From a virus, in the IMG/VR virus record IMGVR_UViG_3300047661_000052, positions 1-21,390 of that record: a stretch of DNA of 21,390 nucleotides, one strand, 5' to 3'. A program made the translations under genes and the position numbers. The notes beneath the pieces are model-generated. The model worked only from the letters and a program-made list of their open reading frames with translations, ran no database searches and was not told where the DNA came from. This document shows positions 3,358 through 21,390 of the stretch, piece after piece (the first letter of the stretch is position 1; the number at the start of each line of letters is the position of its first letter).

Positions 3358-3567
3358 ATGAAACGCTGGGTGATTTTCGCGCTCCTCTTTGTCTCTGTTT
3401 GTTTCCAGGCGAGTGTTCCGGCATATGCGCGGGGAACTCGTTCTGGACCACGAACGCATTACACTGGCCACACGAGCGGCACGTATCAACGCGGTTCCGG
3501 AAGTAGCCATAAAGGCGGTCACTACCGGAATCCAAGCACAAACAACCATTACCAACATCACAAATAA
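3358..3567 (+). CDS. Small exported Gly/His-rich protein
   Basis: A 69-residue protein with a clear Sec signal peptide: basic MKRW, a hydrophobic core to about residue 20, and a likely cut after AYA (residue 24). The mature part, about 45 residues, is rich in Gly, His, Ser, Thr, Asn and Tyr, with no Cys, and ends GSSHKGGHYRNPSTNNHYQHHK. I recall the same SHKGGHY-NP-T-xHY ending in small exported proteins of other phages and bacteria, but no function is known to me. The His content might bind metal; this is speculation. It sits alone between two gaps and opens the AT-richer block, which suggests an added (moron) gene rather than a tail component. Confidence 0.7.
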   Translation: MKRWVIFALLFVSVCFQASVPAYARGTRSGPRTHYTGHTSGTYQRGSGSSHKGGHYRNPSTNNHYQHHK

Positions 3568-4412: not shown

Positions 4413-5033
4413 ATGCGACGCTTTGTGATTTGCTTGATTTTGTTTATGGCTGCCGACTGCTGGGCCCAGAATGTAATATTGCTCCAACCGTTTGAGCGGA
4501 AGGAGACCGTGACGCCTGCCGAAAAGACTAAAGCGCAGATCGATACAGATGCTGCAGAAGTAATCAAACGTATGAATGCTCCTAGGTCTCCCTCTCCGAA
4601 GCTTCCAACGCCTCCTCAAGCTGCTGCGAAGGTCAATCACGATGCGGCGGCAGCAGGGAAATTGGCCTCTTCTGCAGAGATGGAAACTGCCTGGAAGGCC
4701 GCTCGGAAGGCAGAGATCGATGCTGTCAGGTCCGGGCATGGGAATTCTGTGGACCCCTCTGACTTAGAAGAATGTCAGCGAGCGATTGAGGTTGAGGATT
4801 TCAATGCTCGGCAGGCTAAATATGAGGCTTCGAAAAAAGAAGATTTGACACGTAATCACTGTTCTGAGGAAGTACAAATTGGAACATCGGAAACGTGCGT
4901 TTATCTTCTGATGGGGTATCCAGATCAAACAAACGTGGATTCTCTCAGTGGGAAGCAGCTTGTGTATCCAAATGATCGTTTTGTTTATATCAACACACAA
5001 GGTAATGTGGAAGATGTTCAATCTTCCAACTGA
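4413..5033 (+). CDS. Exported protein with BamE/SmpA-like C-terminal domain
   Basis: A 206-residue protein with a signal peptide (MRRFVICLILFMAADCWA, likely cut before QN at residue 20). Residues about 30-150 are helical and charged with a Pro-rich stretch (APRSPSPKLPTPPQ). The last 55 residues carry the pattern of small SmpA/OmlA/BamE-like folds: VQIGTSETCVYLLMGYPDQTNV (family: IGM---QV--LLG-P--), then QLVYPNDRFVYINTQGNVEDVQ, the usual Tyr-rich strand with an N-G-V turn. Two Cys (in HCSEE and ETCVY) could form a disulphide after export. BamE-like domains occur in outer-membrane assembly factors and many periplasmic proteins, so the fold says where it acts but not what it does. The start has GGAGG at short spacing. 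It is the last gene of the accessory block and is followed by a terminator. Confidence 0.6.
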   Translation: MRRFVICLILFMAADCWAQNVILLQPFERKETVTPAEKTKAQIDTDAAEVIKRMNAPRSPSPKLPTPPQAAAKVNHDAAAAGKLASSAEMETAWKAARKAEIDAVRSGHGNSVDPSDLEECQRAIEVEDFNARQAKYEASKKEDLTRNHCSEEVQIGTSETCVYLLMGYPDQTNVDSLSGKQLVYPNDRFVYINTQGNVEDVQSSN

Positions 5034-5460: not shown

Positions 5461-5822
5461 CCGGCAGCAAATGGTGGCTGCGCTATTGGTCTCTCGCGCG
5501 CTATGATCTCGGGCTCTCTGAGCCGGAATTCTGGTGGCTGACCTTGGCGCAGTTCCACGCTCTTTATGAGTGCCATGCGCAGGCGCGCAAATATGAAGAC
5601 TATCGTACCGGAGTGATCGCCAGCATTGTCGCCAACTTCGGTTTCTGCCATCCCAAAGAATGGCTTTCTCCAAGCGATATTATGCCGTCTTTGCGTGATA
5701 AGACGGGCATAGCTCAGGCTCCGGTATCTGCCAAAGATCAACTGAACTCGCTTCGCGCAGCGCTGCGCAGCATGGCCACAACCAAGATTCCAGCGCAAAA
5801 GGTGAAAAACGATGGCGAATGA
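5448..5822 (+). CDS. Tail assembly chaperone, frameshift extension (gpT-like part of gpGT)
   Basis: This is the -1 frame part of a 241-residue fusion that begins at 5098, reads 117 codons through CCT at 5446-5448, then continues at TCC 5448. The frame between 5436 and 5543 has clear coding character (LTGSKWWLRYWSLARYDLGLSEPEFWWLTLAQFHALYE) but no ATG or GTG, so it is not a separate gene beginning upstream. The only later option, a TTG at 5544, would cut away this conserved-looking Trp-rich part. The segment LGLSEPEFWWLT, followed by DYRTGVIASIVAN, is typical of gpT-like domains, which bind the tail tube protein while the gpG part binds the tape measure. It ends 11 bases inside the tape measure gene. 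Confidence 0.85.
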   Translation, partial: SERLTGSKWWLRYWSLARYDLGLSEPEFWWLTLAQFHALYECHAQARKYEDYRTGVIASIVANFGFCHPKEWLSPSDIMPSLRDKTGIAQAPVSAKDQLNSLRAALRSMATTKIPAQKVKNDGE

Positions 5823-8283
5823 AGAAGTAGCTGGGCTGTACCTTGTCGTTGATTCAAAGACGATCCAAGCCCGCGCTGAAATCGACAAGCTCACGAAAAC
5901 CGTCAAGGAAAGCTCTCGTCAGATGAAAGCTGACATGATGGAGACGCGCGCCAGCATTAAGCAGATCGGCGAGGAAATCGGCGTCAATCTCAACCGTCAC
6001 CTGGTCAGCTTCATGGCCAAGCTGCCCGGCGCGGGGGTCTTTGCCAAGGCTTTCCCCATCGCTGCGGTTGCCGGCATCGGCATGGCATTTGCTGAATCCG
6101 GCAAAAAAGCCTTCGAGTTCTTTGAAAAGTCAAAGGCGGTCGCCGGCGAAATCGGCGAAGCCATGCAAAAGATGCGCCAGGATACGGCAGCCTCGAATAA
6201 CGAGCTCGCGCTTGGCAATGCCAAAATTTCCGAACAGATCGCCAAACTCGAACATAAGCCGGTCAACTCGCTGGCAGTCGCCCTCGCCGAAGCCCGTGTC
6301 AAAGCGGATGATTTAGCTAAAGCGCTTGGCCGTGACATTGAGGAGATGGGTAAGCTTCTCAAGGAGAAACAGGTCACGATCATCGGTGGAATGCTGACCG
6401 ACCAGACTCCTACGGCTGGGGCGCAAGCGATGGAAGAGCGCCATTTCAACGCGATCAAGGCTGTTGATGATTCCGAAATTGAGGAACTAGGTAAGACGAA
6501 GACTTCGGACGAGAAAGACGAAATTCTCAAAAACAATAGGATTAAGCGTCTGGCGATTCAAGAGAACAAGAAAAACTGGAACGAACTGCATGATGCACAG
6601 ACTCAGCTTATTGCGCGGGATGAGGGTTATTCCAAAGGCAGCTCGAAGAACGATCCTGGCGTGCATGTGAATGATGCCTTGCTGACCATCTATGGTAACT
6701 TCGGCCATCAGTTTGAGGCAATGCGTCATGGGATTGAGCTGACGGGTGAGAGGGACGATCTAGATGCTCGATTGAAGAGAGACCAAGACGCTAAGCAAAA
6801 TACGTCTGAACGTTTAAAGGCGATGCAACGTGATTTTGAAACGCGTGAGCTGCTGCACGGCATGTCGCTTGGTGAGGAAGTGCTCTATTGGCAACGCTAC
6901 ACGAACGCTTTTGCACAAGGTAGCGATCAATGGATCGAAGTGAATCGCAAACTCGAAGAGGCCGAGAAGGCTTTTCAAAAGCAAAACAACGAACCGGGCA
7001 AGTTTCAGAAAGAGGGTAAGGAAGAAATAAAGCGTCAGTCCCAGCCGGTTCCTTTGGAAGTTTCCAGCAACAGCGTGGCTCTGAAGATGGAGCAAGACAA
7101 CCTTACGCATGCAGGTGAACGCTGGAGGGAATACCGCGTCGCCGTCGTCAGTGCGCAAGAGCAGGATGTAAAAATGGGCGTGGCACTCGATGCTACGCGA
7201 ACACGCTTTCTTGCCGAAACGGGTGTGATTACTAAGCAGCAAGAGAAACTGCGCGACTTGACGTCCGAGATGCAAAGCTTTGCGAAGCTTATCGATATAG
7301 TCAACGCCGAAAAGGAGGATGTTCAAAGTGATGCTTCACTCACCGATGTTCAGCGCGCTACACAGTTGCAGCAAGTTCAGAATAGGCTAGCCCAGCTTAC
7401 GGGTGAACAGGTTATGAAGCAAGCTGAGGTTAATGCATTTACCCGGAGCATGCAGCTTCGCAACGCCATGGCGACGATGTTCGATGAGTGGATTCTGAAG
7501 TGCAAGGACACCGAGGAGCAGTTCAAAGAACTCTGGAGTCAGTTCTCTACTTCCATGAATGACTCAATGGCCAAGGCGATGCTAGGCCAGAAAACGAGCT
7601 TCTCTGGAGTGTTTCGTTCTCTGGGAGAAACACTCACTAAAGACGCTCTCAAGCAGTCTGAAGCGCGTCTTGCGCCTTACGCCACCAGCGCCTTGCATAA
7701 GGTTCCTGGGCTGGGCGGATGGATGGACAAAATGAAAAAGCCGCCCGTCGCCGCCACGACCATGACCGTCACCGCTCAAACCGTGAACCTTAGCGGCGCG
7801 GTCAGCGGAGCAGGCGGCGCGGCGGGCTCCATGGGCTCGCCCACAGGTGACGCTGCGTGGGGCGCTAGCGGATCGACGGCGAGTTCGGCTCTGAGCACTG
7901 CGGGTAGCGCGATGCCAGCCTTGGGCGGCTTAATGAGCGCCTTCAGTTCCTCCGGGGCTGGCGCGGGGTTTGAAGCAGCGGACCTCGGCGACGCCTTGGG
8001 GGGCGCCATGGCCTTCGGCGGCCCAGTGTTGGCAGGCGTCTCCTACGACGTGGGTGAGATGGGCCGGGAGAAGTTCGTGCCCGACACCAACGGCCACATC
8101 GTGCCACATCACGCGCTGGGTGAGGGAGGGGCGTTCTACGAGATCCACGCCGAGGGCGCATCGGCCGCCGAAGTAGATCAACGGGTGCAGCGCGCCTTGT
8201 CGCGCGTACACAACTCTGCTGTGCAAAATGCCGTCGCTGTGCAAGCCGAACGCCGTCGCCGCGGCCCCAACCGCAATTCATAA
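5812..8283 (+). CDS. Tape measure protein
   Basis: An 823-residue protein that sets tail length and is ejected with the DNA. At roughly 0.15 nm per residue, the known relation for siphophages, it predicts a tail of about 120 nm. Residues 1-60 and about 100-630 are long charged helices with coiled-coil character. Residues about 65-98 ([32 protein letters not shown]) are hydrophobic, as in membrane-inserting tape measure segments. Residues about 650-740 are Gly/Ala/Ser-rich. Near the end, [34 protein letters not shown] is the common C-terminal tape measure motif (aG--Y-VGE-G-E-FVP---G-I). The ATG has AAGGTG upstream and overlaps the chaperone extension. The middle part has more A and T than the ends, possibly a sign of recombination. 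Confidence 0.92.
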
Positions 8284-8311
8284 CCGTTCGCTTTTCTCGA
8301 GGGGTAATCCA

Positions 8312-11300
8312 ATGCAAAGATTCATTCGCGTGGCTCTGGCCGCGCTCGCGGGGGTGTGCCTTTTGGCCCCTGTCACTGCCGTCGCAACCACGCCTTTGGG
8401 GTATGTCGCCCTCTCGTGCTCATCGTTGCAGGATTCCACGGGGACTTTGATCACCAATGCCACCATCAGCTTTGCGCCGGTCAATAGCTCAGGCGTGCCC
8501 ATCAGCTACCAGGTCAACGGCAAAGGGCAGGCCATCTACACGCCAGTCACGGCTCAAGTGTCCAGCGGAGCCTGTGCGATTCAGATCGCCGATACGGCGC
8601 TCACCGTGCCGGCGAATGTCTGCTTTTCCGTCGGCATCACAGATAACGCCAGCGGCAATGCCTTGCTTGGGCCCGGTTACACATGTGTGCAACCGGCAGG
8701 CTCTGGCGTGGCTGTCACCTCGGGATGGTGCACGGCCGCCACGAGTACCGCTGGAGGGGCGTGCAACTTCGACACGTATGCACCCACGCTGGCCGCTGGC
8801 GCTCTTGTCGTGGCTCCCACACTTTCTGCCGGAGCGTTCACGACCGGCGCGGCGGGCAGCTCTGTTGCATGCACGGTCAGCTTGCTGAACTATGCGCCGA
8901 ATTACCAGTTGAACTGCTCGATACCGCAAGGCGTCCAGGGCATCCAGGGGCAAGCGGCGTTGATGGGCACGGAGCGCGGCGCATACAGCGCGACGACGAC
9001 TTACGCCGTCGGCGATGTGGTCGCCTATAGCGGGCAGAGCTACGCATCGTTGATGGCGAGCAATACCGGCAATGAGCCTGACACGAGCATCGGCAAGTGG
9101 GGGCTGTTGGCGAACCTTTCGAACTTGCCCCAGGCCTTCGCCTCGCAGAGTCAAGCCAATCCGCAGCCGGTCTATGCAAGTAACGTCGTGGCTGGCACTA
9201 CGACAACCACCACCTCAATTGGCAGTACGGGAGTCATCTACCCAGACGGTACTACGCAGGCAAGCGCTGGGGCGATCATTGGCCCAATGACTACAGCCTT
9301 CACGCAAAAAGTGCCGATCTCAAAGTTTACTCCGAGCGGCTTGTTGGTTGGCGGCACATCGCGCGATTGGTGTTATGGAAACGACCTAAGCACCACAATC
9401 ACGTTAATGACTAATCCTGCGGCGGGGGTTACGCTGACGATCAGCGGAACTGCGGTCACGTTTGTTGCCTCTGGGGCAACCGGGAATCAGGTCAATATAG
9501 GTGCAAATATCGCTGCAACCACAATAAACCTTCAGGCCATGCTGGCTGCATCCACGGATACGAATCTTTCCGCAAACACTTACTTCACGCTTGCTCCAAA
9601 CCTTGTTGTAGTGCGGCCTCCGAGTTCAGCTGGGGTAGCGCCCTTTGTAACATCCAGTGTTCCGGGAGACTTTCAGACTTACTTTGCCCACCTTTCCGGT
9701 TGCTGGGTATATCGCGCATCAAGGTATTTAGGGGTTGGACCGGCGCACACTTACAACCGGGCGAATCCAGGCAATCAGGCTTGCAATGTGCTGTATTATC
9801 AGCTACTGCCTTACGACCCAGGTCCGACTTCCATTTCCAATGGCCCTCTCGTGGCGCTTGGAGGAAACGTCAACGACGTGACCTATGGTGGCGGATCGCC
9901 TGCGGGGACGTTGGGTCCAACTGCTCCGCCGTATCCGTATTTGCCTACATATAGCGAGTGTGAGCTAGCAAACATGAGCTATGAGGCGGTTCCTTCAACC
10001 TCAAAGGTCTTTGGCGGATCGGCAACAATGACGGGAAGTTGCACGGCGGATACAACTTTTCCCACGGTAACCGGCGTGACTTGCTCATCTACAGGTAGCA
10101 CCGCCGTTTTTAGTGGCTCAAATCTGACGACAACGCAGACGGGGCCGTTTTACGTGTGGGTAGAGCACGGAGATGGTATAGCCGGTGGCGGCACTGTTCA
10201 GGTTGATTCGCTTACACCTGTCTCGTTTGCCACAGCAACCGCTGAACCGATTCTGACGAACAACGGCAATACGCACGGAGTCGGCTTTATCCGCATCCCA
10301 TCGGTGGCGGCGGGGTCACACACTGTTACGGTGACTCAGACCGTCGCGGGAAGCATTACCGTTCTGGCCGCAGGTGCGCCGCCGACAGGCACAATACTCG
10401 GCAAGCCTTGGGAGGTCGTGATGGACATTGCAAACCAAGGCAACAACATCAATCAGACCACGCTGAATGCCTACAACGTGCAGACCTACGCAGACTACAA
10501 TCTGCTGCTTGGCGACGGGCTAAATCTCAACATGGCCCCGGAGAGTTTGCACGTCAAAGGTCCGGCGCAGTACGGAGAATTCATTGGCTCGTCCGATCAC
10601 GAGAATAATCGCGTAGGACAAGCTGAAATCTTTGATGCTTTTCTGGATGCGATTGCGCCAATAGTCAAGAATCCAACAGCTACGGACACAAGTTGCCTTG
10701 GAGCTAATGGAGGCATCATCTATACACTTCCTGAAGACATTACGTGCGTTAGGTCTACCGGAACCGCTACGTTGATTTTGCCGAGCAGTTTCCCTGCCAG
10801 TGGTTATCCTGGTGCGATTGCAGGTGTCAGAGAGGTTCTCATCTCCAATGAATCAGGAAGCACATATCTCACGCTATCTGGGATGGTTGGTGGCAACGCG
10901 CCGGGCACTATTGGTCCTGGCATAGCTTCTGTAAAGCTTTATAGCCCCGGTGGCGGATACTGGTATCAAGAAGGGCAAGGTGTTGCCCAGACAGCCGTTA
11001 ATTCCCAGAATGCCATCACGGCTGGATTGGGACAGTTTTCCGGTCAGACCACTCAAGCATTACAGATGATTGGAACTGCTGGTGGTTATGCCGCCCTGCA
11101 AACTTGCACCTACATCAACTACGTGTTGACCGGGGTTTGCGGGCCGAGCGCCGGAACCAACAATAATATGGCTGCGTGGTTTAAAGGCGGCACTCAATTT
11201 TCTCTTTTTGCCAAGGCGTCTACTCCCGGTGCAACCGCATCGAGCCCGATACTCGACGTGAATGACGGCTACGGATTTTCGTGGGGATCTACTGGTACTC

Positions 11301-11854
11301 TTGGTCCGAAAATTCTCAGCAGCGCTTACGTGCCGCAAGAACAAGCCGTCAATCCGGGGCTCACCATTGGCGTGGTAACCCCTCCTTCCTTAACAGCTAT
11401 TACCGCCTCTTGCGCGACTTGCTCACTGCCCGCAAGCACGACGTATTACTACAAAATAGTCGGGGTGCTCGCCGGGGGAGTTTATACGCCACAGGGTGCT
11501 GAAATTTCACTCACAACCGGTTCGGCCACCAGCACGAACAGCAACACGATTAGCAATGGGAAAACCACTCCGGGTGTTTACTCGTGGACAATCTGCCGGG
11601 GTGCCAGTTCTGACTCTGAGTTGGTTTTGGCGTCAGGGGTTGGTAGCAATTGGGGGAATGGGAACTTTTACTATATCGATACCGGCGCTGTGACGCCATC
11701 TGGTACGTGCCCGTCTGGAATAGGGACTATTGGCAATGTTCCTATTATGTCTACTACCGCTCCCACGGCAGGGGCTGGAGTTTGCTGGAAGACACCAACA
11801 ACGCTAGGCACCTGCACGGCAGGAACCTGGCCAAACTGCACGACCTGCAATTGA
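8312..11854 (+). CDS. Exported fibre-like protein with carbohydrate-binding module
   Basis: A 1180-residue protein with a typical Sec signal peptide ([25 protein letters not shown], likely cut before TT at residue 26). The frame is open upstream, but GAGGGG lies 7 bases before the ATG at 8312, and only this start exposes the signal. Parts: residues 30-130, a beta-rich domain ([25 protein letters not shown]); about 205-215, a short collagen-like GVQGIQGQ; about 223-267, a CBM5/12-like module ([28 protein letters not shown] ... GKWGLL); about 305-320, the tail-fibre motif [11 protein letters not shown]; about 480-780, a possible SGNH-esterase-like region (GGNVND at about 518, DHENN at about 762); and a Cys-rich fibronectin-like end. 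About 26 Cys suggest disulphides outside the cytoplasm. Placed after the tape measure gene, it looks like a receptor-binding fibre, yet fibres are normally assembled in the cytoplasm. It could instead be displayed by the lysogen. Confidence 0.7.
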
Positions 11855-11862
11855 GGAAAGAA

Positions 11863-12231
11863 ATGAAACGCTTATCGCTTTTGCTTATCGTTACCCTGGG
11901 CTGCTTTATAGCAACAGCTCACGCCACCACTGCGTTACAAGCAGGCCCGAACGTAAATGTCGTTTACCAAGGATCTAATGCCCCCGCATACGAGTGGAGT
12001 TTTGTGGTCACAGACTTGCCTGCGAATTTGCTCACGTCTGTCCCATCCATCTTCACTCAGGTTTCTTCGAGGGCACCGGTGGATGCTGCGCTGATTGCCA
12101 CTACGCAGTCAGCTATTCTAGCAAAAATAACGCTGGCAAACACCGCCGCGCCTAACCAATATGTCACCGTGACGGTATCTCGATCTGCTCTGGATTCGGT
12201 GGCAAATTACACGGTCGTCACGATCTGGTAG
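11863..12231 (+). CDS. Small exported protein of unknown function
   Basis: A 122-residue protein starting at the ATG at 11863, which has GAGGAAAG directly upstream; the frame is open earlier but lies inside the fibre gene. MKRLSLLLIVTLGCFIATAHA is a signal peptide with a probable AHA cut at residue 21. The mature 101 residues are beta-rich with many Ala, Thr and Val (VNVVYQGSNAPAYEWSFVVTDLPANL ... YVTVTVSRSALDSVANYTVVTIW) and no Cys. I do not recognise the family. It starts 8 bases after the exported fibre-like gene and precedes a terminator, so the two are probably co-expressed and may act together, for example as a partner or stabiliser of the fibre. This pairing is inferred from position. 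Confidence 0.65.
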   Translation: MKRLSLLLIVTLGCFIATAHATTALQAGPNVNVVYQGSNAPAYEWSFVVTDLPANLLTSVPSIFTQVSSRAPVDAALIATTQSAILAKITLANTAAPNQYVTVTVSRSALDSVANYTVVTIW

Positions 12232-12330: not shown

Positions 12331-12792
12331 ATGTATTTTAGTGCTGCGGGATTAGCGCTTCTCAAGCGCTCGGAAGGGTTGCGACTATTTGTCTATCGGG
12401 ATGCCGCGGGCCTGCCGACCATTGGTTATGGGCATAAGTTGACGCCCGGTGAACATTATCCCAAGGGAATCACCGAGGCTGAGGCCTTCGTGCTCCTCGA
12501 CAAAGATCTGTCTGTTGTCGAAAAATTCGTTGCTTCGCTTGTACACGTAACTCTAACCCAGGGGCAGTTTGACGCCCTGGTGGATTTTGTCTACAACCTG
12601 GGCTACAGACGGCTGGCCGGGTCCACGCTGCTGCGCGATCTGAATGCCGGCAACTATGACCTGGTTCCTAAGCAGCTTTTGCTGTGGGATCACGGCGATA
12701 TGCATGGCAAAGAGGTCGAGCTCAAAGATTTGAAAGCGCGCCGCCAGGCCGAAGCGAAACTCTGGACGACAACTCAAGCCAGTCTGGCTTAA
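12331..12792 (+). CDS. Phage lysozyme (endolysin), T4 type, GH24
   Basis: A 153-residue endolysin that cuts the beta-1,4 bond between N-acetylmuramic acid and N-acetylglucosamine in peptidoglycan. The catalytic triad Glu15 (LLKRSEGLRL), Asp24 (YRDAAG) and Thr30 (PTIGYGH) has the same spacing as Glu11/Asp20/Thr26 of T4 lysozyme. Further family features are LTQGQFDALVDFVYNLGYRRLAGSTLLRDLN and the final RRQAEAKLW. There is no signal peptide or N-terminal membrane anchor, so release through a holin pore is expected, and a holin-like gene follows. GGGAG lies just before the ATG. The position between tail genes is unusual for a lysis gene. Confidence 0.93.
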   Translation: MYFSAAGLALLKRSEGLRLFVYRDAAGLPTIGYGHKLTPGEHYPKGITEAEAFVLLDKDLSVVEKFVASLVHVTLTQGQFDALVDFVYNLGYRRLAGSTLLRDLNAGNYDLVPKQLLLWDHGDMHGKEVELKDLKARRQAEAKLWTTTQASLA

Positions 12793-13836: not shown

Positions 13837-14091
13837 ATGGCATCGAGCACACCGCAAATCTTTCAGAACATCACGCCGGAACAATACGAATCTTTTGTCG
13901 CCAAGGCAAAGGCTGCCGGCATCGCCATCACCGGTGACAGCGGTACGGCCAGCAAAATGGGCGTTACCGTGAGCTGGTCGTATGATCCGCCACGCCAGCA
14001 GCTCACCGTCCAGGTTATCAGCACGCCTTTCTTCATCAAGGCCTCAACCGTCGACGCCAAAATCGCCGCGCTGGTCAAGGAAAATCTGTGA
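13837..14091 (+). CDS. Small cytoplasmic protein of unknown function, tail tip module
   Basis: An 84-residue protein without a signal or membrane segment. The N-terminal half is helical (ITPEQYESFVAKAKAAGI), the middle is a strand pair (GVTVSWSYDPPRQQLTVQVIS), and it ends with a short helix (STVDAKIAALVKENL). I do not know a function. The start has CGAGG upstream, and the stop overlaps the GTG of the distal tail gene (GTGA), so the two are translationally coupled. It therefore belongs to the tail tip operon although it sits directly after a terminator, and may be an assembly helper or minor tip part. Confidence 0.6.
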   Translation: MASSTPQIFQNITPEQYESFVAKAKAAGIAITGDSGTASKMGVTVSWSYDPPRQQLTVQVISTPFFIKASTVDAKIAALVKENL

Positions 14092-14738
14092 GCTATCCGA
14101 CGTTCAATGACTGGACCATCATCGATCCGCCGTCCGCGCCGGGTTTCAAGGGCATCGTGCTGCGCATGAACGATACCGTGGCTGAGGCTCGTTCGCCTTT
14201 TACCGCCAAGTCGCAGGTGCAGGCGTGGCCCGGCGCGGATTGGTGGGAGGTCGAAATTGAAATGCCGCCATTGCAGCCCAGCCAAACCGCGCCCTGGCAG
14301 GCGTGGTTGGCTTCGCTGCAAGGCAAGGGGAATGTCTTTCAGGTTGGCGATCCGAGCCGAAAGATGCCGCAAAATCCTGTCGTCGGCAGTGTGCCTGTTT
14401 GCGCGACCGGCGCACTGCCTTCGGCGGTCAACCTTACCGGAGCAACATCGCTGGTTACGCGTGGCTGGCTCCCGTCGCGGCAGCGGATTTTGCTGCCGGG
14501 CGACTATCTCCAAGTCGGTTACCGGCTGTATATGGTTTTGCAGCCGGTAGCTTCTGACGCCGAAGGAAACGCCACCATCAATGTCTGGCCAACTCTGCGC
14601 GAGCAACCGGCCGACGATGCGCAAATCATCCTCAACTATCCCAAAGGGCTATTTCGCCTGGCGGATAATGCCCGGCAAATTTCCATCGCCGTCACGCGCC
14701 TGAGCGCCGTCGGCTTCAAGTGTGTGGAGGCTCGCTGA
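14088..14738 (+). CDS. Distal tail / minor tail protein
   Basis: A 216-residue protein in the place of the distal tail protein, which links the tube to the hub. The layout fits phage minor tail proteins of the type: strand FKGIVLRMNDTVAEARSPFTAKSQVQAWPGADWWEVEIEMPPLQPSQTAPWQAWLASLQGKGNVFQVGDP, then a second beta domain GWLPSRQRILLPGDYLQVGYRLYMVLQ ... NATINVWPTLREQP. Pieces such as W--E---PP-----A---FL-S--G----F--GDP, and GD--Q-G---Y-V followed by I-P-L, are common in this group. Translation starts at GTG 14088, overlapping the previous stop, with AAGGA about 7 bases upstream. The next gene's ATG overlaps its stop by one base. Confidence 0.68.
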   Translation: MSYPTFNDWTIIDPPSAPGFKGIVLRMNDTVAEARSPFTAKSQVQAWPGADWWEVEIEMPPLQPSQTAPWQAWLASLQGKGNVFQVGDPSRKMPQNPVVGSVPVCATGALPSAVNLTGATSLVTRGWLPSRQRILLPGDYLQVGYRLYMVLQPVASDAEGNATINVWPTLREQPADDAQIILNYPKGLFRLADNARQISIAVTRLSAVGFKCVEAR

Positions 14739-15756: not shown

Positions 15757-18621
15757 ATGGCAAAAGCGATCATTGGAGCAGTTGAAATCGGCGCAGGTAT
15801 AACGCTTATGGCCACCGGGTACGGCGCGGCCTTTGGACTTGGGCTCATCATGGCCGGTGCCGGCGAAGAAATGGCCTTCGTCGCCCAGGAATTACAGGGC
15901 AATCCGGCACTCACCGCCAGCGCCAAGCTGCCCAGCGCACCGCGCGAAGGCGTCTATGGCATGGTGCGCAAAGGTGGCACGTTTATCTATCAATCCACCA
16001 CCGGCCACCAGCTCAATCAGGTGATTGTGTGGGCCGCTCATTCTTGCCAAAGCATCATCGCTCTGTATGCCGATCAGCGCAAATTCTATTACAGCGATGA
16101 TGGCACTCTCTCGCAGCGCAGCCCTTACGGGGGCGGCAATGGCGATGGCAACGATCACGTTGATGATTCCGGCAACACGTATAATTTCGGAGGAAAAGCC
16201 GCGGCCTGGCACCATTGCGGATGGGGCTGCGGAACCTCGGTTTGGTCTGCCGGCATGACTGCCAGTCGGAATCAGTCGGGCGACACGGCTAGCACCTTCG
16301 AGCCCACCATTGTCGGCGTGGCTATCGGCGGCACAACGTATGCTTTTGCCTGTGTCAGTGCCGCCGTTGCGGGCTCCGATTCGACGGTATTCAACGCAGC
16401 CTCCGCTGTAGGCGCTCTGGTCACTGATGGTGGCGTCACCTGGGTCAATATCGGTCCCGCTCCCGGCGGCTATTGGTTTGTGCAACTCTACAATCAAGCC
16501 AGCGATACCGAGCAGTGGAACAACGATTGCACCATGACGGGACTCTGCGCAACGTACTTCAAGGCGACATATGACGCCAGCCTTTTCAGCGGTCCACCGC
16601 AACTCCGCGCAACCATACAAGGCCGCAATGACATCTACGATCCGCGCCTCGATACCAATCCGCCCACCTTTCCGGCATCGGCCTATGGATACACCACCAA
16701 TGCCGCTCTCTGCATTGCCGCGCATCTGAATGATTCGCAGTTTGGCTTTGGCGTCAGTTACAACACGGGCATCGATCTTGATCAGCTTATCGCCGCGGCC
16801 AATCTCTGTGACGAGCAGGTACAGTTGGCCGCCGGCTCGCAGCCGGGCACCGCCTCGGCATGGCAGTCTTGGACGGATTATGCAACGGGGGCAGAATTCA
16901 CCTATGGTGGCTACACTTACACCGTCATCTCCAACTACTATTCAGGCGCTTATTTTGGCCAAACCGACATCGTCGGCGTAACCATCGAGCAGAACACCCT
17001 CGGTTCGGTGACAGAAAGCCGCTATGCCATCAACGGCTACTTCAACAGCGATCAGACTCCAGGCGAAATTCTGAGCTCGATGCTGATGGCCTGCGAGGGA
17101 CGCATCACGCGGCAGGGCGGAGTGTACAAGATCTACCCGGCGGCCTGGTACGGAACGAGCTTGACTTTCGGCGCGGACGATCTCTGCGGCCCGGTCAAAT
17201 GGCAATCCGCAATCAAGTTCCGCGATCGCTGCAATTGTGTGCGCGCTACCTTCGTTTGCCCTCAGTATCCGTACAACGTCAGCGGCTACAGCTACGACCA
17301 CAAGAACGACAATATCTTCGCCGGCGAATGGCAGCCCACCGATGCGCCGCCTTACGCGCAAGACTACCTGCATGGCTATGGCTCCATCACCGATCCGTAT
17401 GAGGGAGATGCCAACCTTGAACAGGATGGCGGCGTGCGTCTCTATAACGATCGGCGCTATCAGTTCGTCATCAGCGTAAGCCAGTGCCAGCGCTTGATGA
17501 AAATCTACATGCTGCGCAAGCGCTTCGAGGGCAATGGAACTTTCCCGATGAAGCTTTCGGCCCTGCAGGCGCAATGCCAGGATGTGATCAATTTCACATT
17601 TTCCTACCTGGGGATGAATAACACCTACCTTGAGGTGGCCAAGTTCGATTGGGCCATGCAGGAAGATGAGGAGGCTGGCGGCGGTGACGGGGCGCGCCCT
17701 GTGCGTCTCACCACGCAATTGGAGTTGCAGCTCACCGACCCGAGCGTCTACGAATGGTCTGTGACGGAAGAGATGACTCTGTACGATCAGTCCAGCCCGG
17801 CGCTGGAAAACTCTTTCCAGGTCTCTCCACCTACGGCTGTCACTGCTACCAGCGCACTGAGCACCGCATTGGTGGCGGCCGATGGCATTGTCACGCCGCG
17901 GATCGAGATTACCTGGACTGAGCCTGCCGATCCCTATGTAACCAGCGGTGGAAGTATCCAGATCCAGAGCACACCGCATGGAACTGGGGCGTGGGCGGAC
18001 GTGATGACGCTTGCTGGCACGGCACAGATCGCCTATCTGGGCAATGTCGTGAGCGGTAATAGCTACGATGTCCAGATTCGTTCCGTGCGCGCCTCTGGTG
18101 CGTACTCGGCCTGGGTCCAATGCCTCAATGTAGTCTGCGGCACCGCTCTCAGTTCCATCTCCGCTTCATCGATTGCAGGTCTGACGGCGGAAACTATTTC
18201 AGGACTGGCGGCCTCGGCCACGATTAACACGACGGACGCGGGGAATATTTCCAGCGGTACGCTCTCGGCCTCACGACTGCCGGCCTCGGTTGCGTCTCTC
18301 GCTCTGGCGAGCTCTGGCTCCGCAACCGCCACGCTGGGAGCGGCGGCGCAGATCGGAGCAGGGGCGACGGTAACTGTCAGTGGGTCGGCGGCGTCCGGAA
18401 CGGTCACTCTCGTTACCGGGACGGGCACGCTGGCCTCCGGAGTGATTTGCACGGTGACGTTTCCGTCCATACTGAGCGCTGCGCCGCAAGGTGTCTGCGC
18501 GCCCAACGGCGCGGCAATTCCGGGCCTTAGCTGGACTACCAGTACAACGCAGCTTGTGTTGAGCGCGAGCGCGGCTCTCACGCCCAGCACAAACTACGAA
18601 ATCGGTTATTCACTGGTATAG
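15757..18621 (+). CDS. Tail tip / central fibre protein (gpJ/GTA gp15-like)
   Basis: A 954-residue tip protein, expected to form the central hub fibre that contacts the host. Residues 1-45 include a hydrophobic Gly/Ala-rich stretch (IGAVEIGAGITLMATGYGAAFGLGLIMAGAG). The middle holds two inserted repeats of a small surface module: about 177-240 (ending TDGGVTWVNIGPAPGGYW) and about 368-405 (WQSWTDYATGAEFTYGGYTYTVISNYYSGAYFG, CBM5/12-like). Residues about 470-655 resemble the Phage-tail_3/TipJ region (FRDRCNCVRATFV ... DGGVRLYNDRRYQFVISVSQCQRLMKIYMLRKRFEG). About 688-790 is a fibronectin type III-like domain (PPTAVTATS ... ITWTEP ... YDVQIRSV). The rest is Ser/Ala/Thr-rich with the fibre motif NISSGTLSASRLP and a final beta domain. 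It starts at the ATG immediately after the previous stop. Confidence 0.85.
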   Translation: MAKAIIGAVEIGAGITLMATGYGAAFGLGLIMAGAGEEMAFVAQELQGNPALTASAKLPSAPREGVYGMVRKGGTFIYQSTTGHQLNQVIVWAAHSCQSIIALYADQRKFYYSDDGTLSQRSPYGGGNGDGNDHVDDSGNTYNFGGKAAAWHHCGWGCGTSVWSAGMTASRNQSGDTASTFEPTIVGVAIGGTTYAFACVSAAVAGSDSTVFNAASAVGALVTDGGVTWVNIGPAPGGYWFVQLYNQASDTEQWNNDCTMTGLCATYFKATYDASLFSGPPQLRATIQGRNDIYDPRLDTNPPTFPASAYGYTTNAALCIAAHLNDSQFGFGVSYNTGIDLDQLIAAANLCDEQVQLAAGSQPGTASAWQSWTDYATGAEFTYGGYTYTVISNYYSGAYFGQTDIVGVTIEQNTLGSVTESRYAINGYFNSDQTPGEILSSMLMACEGRITRQGGVYKIYPAAWYGTSLTFGADDLCGPVKWQSAIKFRDRCNCVRATFVCPQYPYNVSGYSYDHKNDNIFAGEWQPTDAPPYAQDYLHGYGSITDPYEGDANLEQDGGVRLYNDRRYQFVISVSQCQRLMKIYMLRKRFEGNGTFPMKLSALQAQCQDVINFTFSYLGMNNTYLEVAKFDWAMQEDEEAGGGDGARPVRLTTQLELQLTDPSVYEWSVTEEMTLYDQSSPALENSFQVSPPTAVTATSALSTALVAADGIVTPRIEITWTEPADPYVTSGGSIQIQSTPHGTGAWADVMTLAGTAQIAYLGNVVSGNSYDVQIRSVRASGAYSAWVQCLNVVCGTALSSISASSIAGLTAETISGLAASATINTTDAGNISSGTLSASRLPASVASLALASSGSATATLGAAAQIGAGATVTVSGSAASGTVTLVTGTGTLASGVICTVTFPSILSAAPQGVCAPNGAAIPGLSWTTSTTQLVLSASAALTPSTNYEIGYSLV

Positions 18622-19501: not shown

Positions 19502-20713
19502 ATGGGTAATATGAGTAAAAATCTAGCGCAACATACGTTGGGTCATCGCAATTGTCCGGCGTGCAATGGGGCCATCGAAATGCAGGACTCCGAGTTGTCT
19601 CCGCTTATGACTTTCGCGGAGGCTTTTGATGTATGGATAGCACAGCGGGTAATAAAAAACGCGGGAATCTGGACAAATGCCCGCTACATCAGTGATCGCA
19701 CGGAGCGAGATCTACGGCAATATGCGCGCTCAGCGGGGAAATTCTTCGGTAGCCTGCGTCTGGAGGAGATACATATTGGGCATCTACGCCAGTATCAGCA
19801 GGCGCGGGCTATCAATCTCATTAAGGTCGCCAGCGTCCAGGGTGCTTGCGATACGCATCCTTGGGAACAACCTGCTGGCGCTAACTTAATCCGCAAGGAA
19901 GTTGGAACCGTTATGCGGGTGATGCGCTCCGCCGGTGCATGGACGAAGCATCATGAAGAAGTTTATGAACCATTGGCCTCGGTCAATAGCGATGTGCCTC
20001 GCGCGATGTCTCCGGAAGAACAGCATCGATGGTTACATGTGGCGTCATCCCGCGAGCAGTGGCAAACAGTACACCAGTGGTCGTTGGTTGCCCTGCAAAC
20101 AACAGCGGCCACAAATGAGATGCGCGCCTTGCGTTTCGGCGACATTTTTCTATCCCAAGGCACGATACAGGTGCGCAATGAGGGCGCTAAAAACAAGTTC
20201 CGAATTCGCACGATCCCGTTGCAGACGCCTGAAATAGTATGGGCTCTGAATGGATTGATGGAGCGTGCGCGCGCGATGGGCGCCAATGGGCCACAGTGCT
20301 ATTTGTTTCCATTCCATTTGACAGCTAATCGTTACGATCCTTTGCGGCCTATGACGGTCTGGGGGTTGCGCAAACATTGGGAAGAAGTCAGAGCGGCTGC
20401 CGGACTGGAATGGCTGCGCATCTACGACCTTCGCCATACTGCGATTACACGGATGGCAGAGGCCGGTGTGCCGATTCACGTGATTATGAGCTTTGCCGGG
20501 CATATCAGCCCGCGCATGCAACAGCACTACACTGCCATCAGTATGGAAGCTAAACGGCGATGGGCAGTAGCTGCTTGGGCTGGTGGCGAAATGCCGTTCA
20601 CTCCTGCAAGCGACAGATGGGAAAGCGATAATTCTCCTTCGTCAACGCCCCGATTTGGGCCGCAGCCGGCGCGTCCTGACGGATCGCAACCGAATGCAGT
20701 GGGCTGGCGATAA
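19502..20713 (+). CDS. Tyrosine recombinase / phage integrase
   Basis: A 403-residue integrase that recombines attP with the tRNA-Lys target. Residues 35-150 form the core-binding domain. The catalytic domain shows Arg208 (TNEMRALRFGDI), Lys230/232 (GAKNKFRIRTIPL), Tyr308-Asp-Leu-Arg311-His312 (YDLRHTAI), His334 (FAGHIS) and the nucleophile Tyr343 (HYTAIS), with the usual 9-residue spacing from His334. In the HxxR box the first position is Tyr, a variant seen in other integrases. The N-terminus has H11, H15, C18 and C21 (HTLGHRNCPAC), a possible zinc site. The C-terminal 45 residues after the domain are Pro-rich. The ATG at 19502 has GAGGGGG upstream; ATG 19511 is an alternative. It ends about 120 bp before the attachment site. 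Confidence 0.93.
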   Translation: MGNMSKNLAQHTLGHRNCPACNGAIEMQDSELSPLMTFAEAFDVWIAQRVIKNAGIWTNARYISDRTERDLRQYARSAGKFFGSLRLEEIHIGHLRQYQQARAINLIKVASVQGACDTHPWEQPAGANLIRKEVGTVMRVMRSAGAWTKHHEEVYEPLASVNSDVPRAMSPEEQHRWLHVASSREQWQTVHQWSLVALQTTAATNEMRALRFGDIFLSQGTIQVRNEGAKNKFRIRTIPLQTPEIVWALNGLMERARAMGANGPQCYLFPFHLTANRYDPLRPMTVWGLRKHWEEVRAAAGLEWLRIYDLRHTAITRMAEAGVPIHVIMSFAGHISPRMQQHYTAISMEAKRRWAVAAWAGGEMPFTPASDRWESDNSPSSTPRFGPQPARPDGSQPNAVGWR

Positions 20714-20735
20714 CGGTTCACTTTTGGTTTTTTCC

Positions 20736-20763
20736 TTGACATCCGTCTAAATTTCTTTAATCT
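20736..20763 (+). promoter_or_regulatory. Candidate promoter pointing into the attachment site
   Basis: TTGACA (20736-20741) is a perfect -35 hexamer. A -10 is weaker: TAATCT (20758-20763) at 16 bases spacing. It lies just after the integrase stop and would transcribe rightward through the tRNA fragment toward the 3' end of bshA, antisense to it. In the circular phage genome it would read across attP into the left arm. Confidence 0.4.
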
Positions 20764-20798
20764 GGATCGCAGTGCATTCTGGACATGTTGAGTTCCGT

Positions 20799-20823
20799 GC
20801 GTTGGTTTTCTATCGACCAACGC
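20799..20823. repeat. Perfect inverted repeat next to the attachment site
   Basis: GCGTTGGT (20799-20806) and ACCAACGC (20816-20823) are an exact 8-bp inverted repeat with a 9-base spacer. It starts about 35 bases before the tRNA fragment. It may be an integrase or accessory factor binding site, or end the integrase transcript; without a T run the former is more likely. Confidence 0.5.
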
Positions 20824-20835
20824 CCTGCACTGAGT

Positions 20836-20890
20836 GAGCAACGCCCTTTTAAGGCGTGGGTCCTGGGTTCGAATCCCAGCGAGCTCACCA
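20836..20890 (+). other. Attachment site: 3' fragment of tRNA-Lys(UUU)
   Basis: The sequence folds as the 3' part of a tRNA: end of the D stem (GAGC, A), anticodon stem ACGCC/GGCGT with loop CTTTTAA (anticodon TTT at 20848-20850), a short variable loop, T arm CTGGG-TTCGAAT-CCCAG, the acceptor strand CGAGCTC, A and an encoded CCA. The matching 5' acceptor strand (GAGCTCG) and the D-arm start are missing upstream. This is therefore a fragment, as left at one end when a phage integrates into a tRNA gene. The intact tRNA-Lys should stand at the far left end of the prophage. The core identical sequence is expected to be about 55 bases, extending from near 20836 to 20890. Confidence 0.85.
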
Positions 20891-20998
20891 CCCCCATGGC
20901 CGTGGTATGCCCCGAGATCTCCTGTCAGACTGCGCGCAACAAGCCAGCCCCCTGCCGGGAGAGGCATTCCCCTTCCCTTACATTCACTTCAGGCATAT

Positions 20999-21390
20999 TT
21001 AGACCGCCGCCAGCACCTGTTGGTAATAGCGCACGTAATGAGGCACGACAAGCGAGGAGCAGAAGCGCGTCTGCGCAGTGTTTCGACCGGCGTTGCGCAT
21101 TGCTTCGAGGCGGCTGCGATCTTTGAGCAGGCTGACCGCTCCGGCGGCCATTGCCGTGACGTCGCCGACAGGGTAAAGCATTCCGGTCACGCCGTCTTCA
21201 ATCAGCTCCGAGACTCCGCCCACGCGGGTTGCGATGGCGGGCACTTTGCAGGCCATGGCCTCGAGCGCGGCCAAGCCAAAGGACTCAAGTTCGCTGGGCA
21301 TCAGCATGAGATCGGCGAGGGGCAACAACTCGTGAACGCGCTCCTGCTTGCCCAGGAAGTGAACCCGACTCTGAATGCCCAGGTCGTGGG
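20999..21390 (-). CDS. bshA: BshA, N-acetyl-alpha-D-glucosaminyl L-malate synthase (C-terminal part)
   Basis: A GT4 glycosyltransferase cut by the window edge; about 130 C-terminal residues are seen, from HDLGIQSRVHFLGKQERVHELLPLADLMLMPSELESFGLAALEAMAC onward. The E-SFGLAALEAMAC segment (nucleotide-sugar binding, with the conserved E-x7-E), then VPAIATRVGGVSELIEDGVTGMLYPVGDVTAMA, is very close to BshA. The enzyme joins UDP-GlcNAc and malate in the first step of bacillithiol synthesis, in the cytoplasm. It is the only clear host gene here and lies outside the prophage, convergent to the integrase. Related GT4 enzymes share parts of the motif, but the whole pattern favours BshA. Confidence 0.85.
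   Translation of the reverse strand, partial: HDLGIQSRVHFLGKQERVHELLPLADLMLMPSELESFGLAALEAMACKVPAIATRVGGVSELIEDGVTGMLYPVGDVTAMAAGAVSLLKDRSRLEAMRNAGRNTAQTRFCSSLVVPHYVRYYQQVLAAV

Follow-up and report, generated by a model that had tools for sequence, protein, structure and literature searches.

Tail-fibre genes in viruses of soil Acidobacteria encode a predicted export signal exactly ahead of the tail-docking domain

Tails of tailed phages are assembled in the cytoplasm, and textbook assembly is cytoplasmic throughout; to our knowledge, no tailed phage has been shown to send a fibre through Sec. The tail operon of a 21.4-kb IMG/VR record (21,390 nt, referred to as a whole as the window) contains a fibre-like gene whose product begins with a predicted Sec signal peptide, which raises the question of whether the host exports this fibre and, if so, where the exported protein would act. 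The original prediction had placed an open reading frame of 1180 residues right after the tape measure gene, and its coordinates were found to be correct, with a gap of 28 bp between the tape measure stop and the fibre ATG. The features of the 5′ part of the gene are as follows.

8312 to 11854, plus strand: whole fibre gene, 1180 aa, ATG at 8312 and last stop base at 11854
8300 to 8304, plus strand: ribosome-binding site AGGGG of the fibre gene, from sequence
8312 to 8386, plus strand: predicted Sec signal peptide, residues 1-25, with a predicted signal peptidase I site between AVA and TT
8390 to 8791, plus strand: mature N-terminal beta-sandwich, residues 27-160, tail-docking fold by AlphaFold and VIA-align

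The start codon at 8312 was retained after two other starts had been considered. One at 8228 was dropped because of its overlap with the tape measure gene and because homologues begin at the signal peptide, and an internal start 3′ of the signal peptide was dropped because it has no ribosome-binding site. In nearly all homologues, a ribosome-binding site lies 5′ of the matching signal-peptide start. An assembly error or gene fusion was likewise discarded, since the fibre architecture repeats in dozens of contigs and one MAG. The N terminus itself has an n-region of net charge +2, a strongly hydrophobic h-region, and a cleavage site between AVA and T, and thus the n-, h-, and c-regions and the AxA motif of Sec/signal peptidase I proteins, as judged by a rule on charge, hydrophobic core, and the −3/−1 residues rather than by SignalP. 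Neither a twin-arginine motif nor a lipobox was found in this N terminus.

We then compared the domain that directly follows the predicted cleavage site with known structures. An AlphaFold model built with 39 homologues reached a pLDDT of about 95 over model residues 1-130. VIA-align matched it best with residues 1-105 of the A-1(L) tail fibre (PDB 8kec chain b; Z 9.9, rmsd 2.1), followed at Z 8.0 by two tail tips, those of Ur-lambda (9e7m chain Ta) and Bxb1; chains of the phage XM1 neck and of cyanopodophage Pan3 ranked lower. Z values of 8 are just moderately over the background described for the tool. From its chain length, 8kec chain b was inferred to be the A-1(L) short fibre, and 9e7m chain Ta corresponds to residues 1-94 of lambda orf-401 (Stf) by a sequence match of E 6e-60. 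The top three matches are all N termini of virion tail proteins. Residues 2-110 of the A-1(L) short fibre form a ring that anchors to the baseplate (PMC10966104). Foldseek alone gave no match below E 0.001, and lambda Stf did not match the domain significantly by sequence (hhalign probability 1.8%). By its model, the segment that directly follows the predicted cleavage has a tail-docking fold.

To collect relatives, viral contigs were searched with the whole protein, which returned no matches, and with residues 27-160 alone, which worked; the whole-protein search was empty because only this N-terminal domain is widely common. Domain scans of viral contigs gave 13 and then 43, 7, and 22 loci, partly overlapping. 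As the A1-based scan pattern contained cysteine, two scans were added with patterns that did not require the conserved cysteines. One further match occurred in an Acidobacteriaceae MAG, and a sample of 396 genomes of the MAG's phylum yielded more family members. Removal of redundancy left 49 fibres. Their docking domain is followed by collagen-like repeats and CBM5/12-like, pectate-lyase-like, or GDSL hydrolase modules in varied combinations, and such variable modules behind a conserved N terminus are the usual build of a receptor-binding fibre. Pfam Collagen matched 15 of the 39 homologues scanned, GDSL/SGNH modules occurred in both signal-bearing and signal-less fibres, and no tail-fibre N-terminal family was found among the Pfam matches of these 39 (E up to 5).

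A signal peptide was found in 39 of the 49 non-redundant relatives, from siphovirus tail operons as well as from podovirus-like loci; the ten signal-less fibres are L009, L058 to L062, L066, L068, L074, and L081. The strict signal rule passed the window fibre and 34 of the 39 signal-bearing fibres, the remaining five being signal-like by eye, and none of the ten signal-less ones, but it also passed 11 of the 139 other proteins encoded in the tail operons of these loci, a false-positive rate of about 8%. Furthermore, the predicted cleavage falls 2-4 residues N-terminal of the docking domain in nearly all signal-bearing relatives, and the start codons of the signal-less relatives (MPTGF, MGY) fall 1-3 residues before the same point. 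This coincidence indicates that both kinds of fibre would give the same mature protein, the signal being an exact N-terminal addition. The signal-peptide sequences have diverged among relatives, yet they hold their form at a near-constant distance from site to domain. Taken together, these data delineate a family of tail-fibre genes in viruses of soil Acidobacteria with a predicted export signal exactly ahead of the docking part, an arrangement which suggests that the host exports the fibre from the cytoplasm before it joins the virion.

Export into an oxidizing compartment predicts that cysteine pairs should accompany the signal, and this was what we found. The conserved residues lie within the docking domain.

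8621 to 8623, plus strand: Cys104, first half of conserved pair 1 (NVC[FY])
8684 to 8686, plus strand: Cys125, second half of pair 1 (GYxCVQP)
8729 to 8764, plus strand: Cys140 and Cys151, conserved pair 2 (WC...CNFD)

Pair 1 is complete in 36 of the 37 signal-bearing relatives on the tree versus none of the 10 signal-less ones, and pair 2 in 32 of 37 versus none of 10. Among signal-bearing fibres both members of a pair are usually lost together, and signal-less fibres mostly retain Cys125 alone. Beyond residue 170, cysteine makes up 1.54% of signal-bearing and 0.76% of signal-less fibres (Mann-Whitney p 0.001). The window fibre has 27 cysteines, 26 of them in the mature part, in line with the roughly 26 first reported. 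Cysteine richness by itself was dropped as evidence of export, because other tail proteins of this phage are rich in cysteine too; its cytoplasmic tail-tip protein contains 19 within 954 aa. At least four changes of signal-peptide state occur on the best tree, but well-supported branches force only one change and the AU test does not reject a signal-less group of single origin (p 0.3), so the association between cysteines and signal may rest on few independent events. The window fibre is probably disulphide-bonded, as its conserved pairs suggest. With the signal kept in 39 of 49 relatives and paired cysteines tracking it, the outcome that the original prediction had named as speaking against it, homologues mostly without a signal, did not occur; its signal-peptide claim is borne out, as a prediction, by the n-/h-/c-region rule and by the relatives. 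From this comparison, export of the window fibre is much better supported than from its own sequence alone.

The surroundings of the gene were examined in the window and in related loci. In the window, the following neighbours were assigned.

5812 to 8283, plus strand: tail tape measure protein, directly upstream (Pfam Tape_meas_lam_C, E 3.2e-6)
11863 to 12231, plus strand: 122-aa accessory protein with a predicted signal peptide, 8 bp 3′ of the fibre gene
12331 to 12792, plus strand: soluble phage lysozyme, endolysin (Pfam Phage_lysozyme, E 9e-35)
14088 to 14738, plus strand: distal tail protein (phrog_1302, E 2.6e-38)
15757 to 18621, plus strand: J-like tail tip or central fibre protein without a signal peptide (phrog_5616, E 9e-53; phrog_31, E 7e-15)

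In siphoviruses the fibre gene is flanked by the tape measure gene and the distal tail gene, or occupies a position 5′ of the tape measure gene or one 3′ of the tail tip gene. The first of these slots holds signal-bearing fibres in the window, L007, and L033 and signal-less fibres in L060 and L061, and the slot next to the tail tip gene holds signal-bearing fibres in L003, L005, and L006 and a signal-less one in L062. Fibre genes of the podovirus-like group begin with an ATG that overlaps the stop codon of a portal gene (phrog_21, E about 1e-100), and translation of the two genes is predicted to be coupled. A chromosome-sized contig from the MAG's phylum also carried a signal-less fibre together with its tail operon, indicating that host phylum does not dictate the export state.

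Accessory genes next to the fibres tend to share their export state, as far as signal prediction tells: a signal peptide was found in the non-core gene immediately 3′ of the fibre at 13 of 17 signal-bearing versus 0 of 5 signal-less loci, a grouping defined after the data had been seen. CHB_HEX_C/Fn3_assoc domains occur in two downstream accessory neighbours of signal-bearing relatives. The accessory protein encoded at 11863-12231 is probably exported along with the window fibre, given its own signal peptide. Between its genes for the major tail protein and the tape measure, the window has two more small signal-peptide genes, at 3358-3567 (69 aa) and 4413-5033 (206 aa), and its tail operon is thus predicted to encode at least four exported proteins.

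Behind the docking domain, the window fibre carries further modules.

8918 to 8965, plus strand: short collagen-like stretch (GVQGIQGQA), from sequence; many homologues have long Gly-X-Y runs here
8981 to 9100, plus strand: CBM5/12-like module, residues 224-263 (Pfam PF02839, E 7.6e-5, under the curated cut-off)
9236 to 9268, plus strand: 11-residue fibre motif, residues 309-319
9395 to 9553, plus strand: mobile Ig-like module, residues 362-414
9674 to 10666, plus strand: SGNH-hydrolase-like region, residues about 455-785, by alignment with L078 and L005

The fibre motif and the collagen-like stretch of the original prediction were both recovered, the latter being very short. The match behind its CBM5/12-like module exists, but scores just below the Pfam cut-off (23.1 bits, or 25.9 on the fragment, versus 26.2); the module is 59% identical over 44 aa to the tail fibre of Caulobacter phage S2B. 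The Ig-like module, an insertion in the fibre, is 55-67% identical to tail and tail-tube proteins of Rhodobacter phages and occurs in 25 further phage loci. In the SGNH-like region, L078 has all blocks (VVLGDSISMG, SGDQA, GTND, and HPGPLGH). Block I of the window fibre is degenerate, with VYRAS in place of VLGDS (GD to RA), and the Ser, Gly, Asn, and His positions are kept; its enzymatic activity is uncertain on these residues. Pfam gave no match for this region, and its model, with a pLDDT of 34, was set aside. The docking fold (27-160), the Ig-like module (about 362-414), and the degenerate SGNH-hydrolase-like region (about 455-785) had been overlooked originally.

With an N-terminal docking fold, a gene within the structural operon, and variable C-terminal modules behind a conserved N terminus, the window fibre has features by which side tail fibres are recognised. 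Like lambda Stf (9e7m Ta) and the A-1(L) fibre (8kec b), it is a tail-operon product with an N-terminal beta-sandwich ahead of fibre repeats and variable receptor-binding modules, but in those two the docking domain starts at residue 1-2 and a signal peptide is absent. The signal-less fibres of related phages have the same docking domain, collagen-like and SGNH-like modules, and the same kinds of slot, and differ in having no signal peptide, no conserved cysteine pairs, and no exported accessory gene that we saw. The Bdellovibrio MAT fibres (PMC10769870) are exported, as is predicted for the window fibre, but they are bacterial predation adhesins encoded outside phage structural operons. Lambda Lom is also an exported protein coded among tail genes and demonstrates that an exported non-virion protein can reside in a tail operon (PMC12309495); unlike the window fibre, it is an outer-membrane beta-barrel expressed in lysogens, has no docking domain, and is not a fibre.

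We consider it an even call that the window fibre is the receptor-binding side fibre of a lambda-like siphovirus of Acidobacteriota that is exported through Sec and docks at or after lysis. The original prediction had reasoned that export of a fibre suggests another role. The exported protein could indeed stay off virions and act in the periplasm, on the cell surface, or free in the lysate, where it might bind or deacetylate surface glycans so that progeny avoid debris and infected cells, or block competing phages. The export signal with its tracking cysteine pairs, the carbohydrate-binding and SGNH-like modules, the exported CHB_HEX_C/Fn3_assoc accessory proteins beside relatives, and the several phages with two exported fibres would all suit such a role, for which the Lom precedent and the MAT fibres, phage-fibre-like adhesins with a beta-rich domain directly after the signal, can be cited. 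However, it would leave the conserved tail-docking fold without obvious use, signal-less relatives with shared C-terminal modules occupy the same kinds of slot, and coupling to the tape measure gene, or to the portal gene in another phage type, points to a structural gene. Thus the step from export to a non-virion role is not supported for a mature protein that starts with a virion-docking fold, and such a role, the main rival reading, is possible but less likely.

Display on the lysogen surface, for receptor masking or exclusion of other phages, had also been proposed. It would agree with the export signal and with the window being a prophage, as predicted from its integrase, partial tRNA match, and bshA fragment. 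However, the tape measure gene is only 28 bp away, homologue genes are mostly packed tightly with structural genes with little space for a separate promoter, and the protein has no membrane anchor or lipobox. A promoter and terminator scan gave nothing above chance and no promoter-like coding-strand site near the fibre start, a test that is weak outside Proteobacteria. Because embedding in the structural operon suggests late lytic expression, we regard display by the lysogen as very improbable. An improbable reading, too, is that the signal is unused and the N-terminal hydrophobic stretch of a normal cytoplasmic virion fibre is vestigial or otherwise employed; established tail fibres do assemble without export and signal-less relatives exist, but the diverged signals hold their form and their near-constant distance to the domain, and cysteine pairs and accessory genes track them.

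Gene structure, conservation, fold, covariation, and context were established here by sequence and structure comparison, and the route of an exported side fibre that they suggest would be as follows. The fibre would be made late alongside the tail genes, exported through Sec, and form its disulphides in the periplasm; the soluble lysozyme (12331-12792) and a holin would then open the cell, upon which the fibre would meet the cytoplasm-assembled tails and dock onto the tail tip. In T4 and P22, fibres or tailspikes can join finished particles late in vitro, so post-lysis docking is mechanically possible. More broadly, and somewhat short of an even chance, a tailed-phage lineage may divide its assembly, with capsid and tail made in the cytoplasm and disulphide-bonded fibres and exported partners in the periplasm, meeting only at lysis, and with fibre cassettes that switch between exported and cytoplasmic forms. 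The parts are known, but the open-access literature searched yielded no account of a tailed phage with Sec-exported tail fibres, nor of a signal combined with a docking domain in a phage structural operon, and the chance that the route of assembly is itself new is substantial. Assembly in the cytoplasm limits fibres to folds that are stable under reducing conditions; a second route, if true, would allow disulphide-bonded receptor-binding proteins and make assembly order dependent on lysis. An evolutionary bridge to exported adhesins that resemble phage fibres, like the ones in Bdellovibrio, would also be plausible. Signal-bearing and signal-less forms occur naturally within one bacterial phylum, which makes the question directly testable.

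Several minor observations were made in the same loci. In the window, a tyrosine integrase, a bshA-like fragment on the minus strand, and a partial tRNA match (20827-20879, sub-threshold at E 0.038) within 19502-21328 mark the prophage-chromosome junction, and the bshA-like fragment may reflect bacillithiol production by the host. Five phages (L015, L065, L069, L007, and L021) carry two different signal-bearing fibres in tandem or near-tandem, and L021 encodes two more predicted exported proteins between them. In one genome, a frame-broken second copy of the docking domain (G250:C5:2349401-2349608; L117, L118) and an intact signal-less fibre are about 45 kb apart. A distant acidobacterial relative (L113 / L120:1907-3718) has a signal peptide, a GDSL-like motif, and cysteine pair 2 without pair 1, once more with one entire pair absent. 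Finally, in two phages (L038:212-290 and L039:4423-4500), a repeat-like insertion encoding CHPERPERSGGSRRTCGCF lengthens the n-region of the fibre signal peptide.
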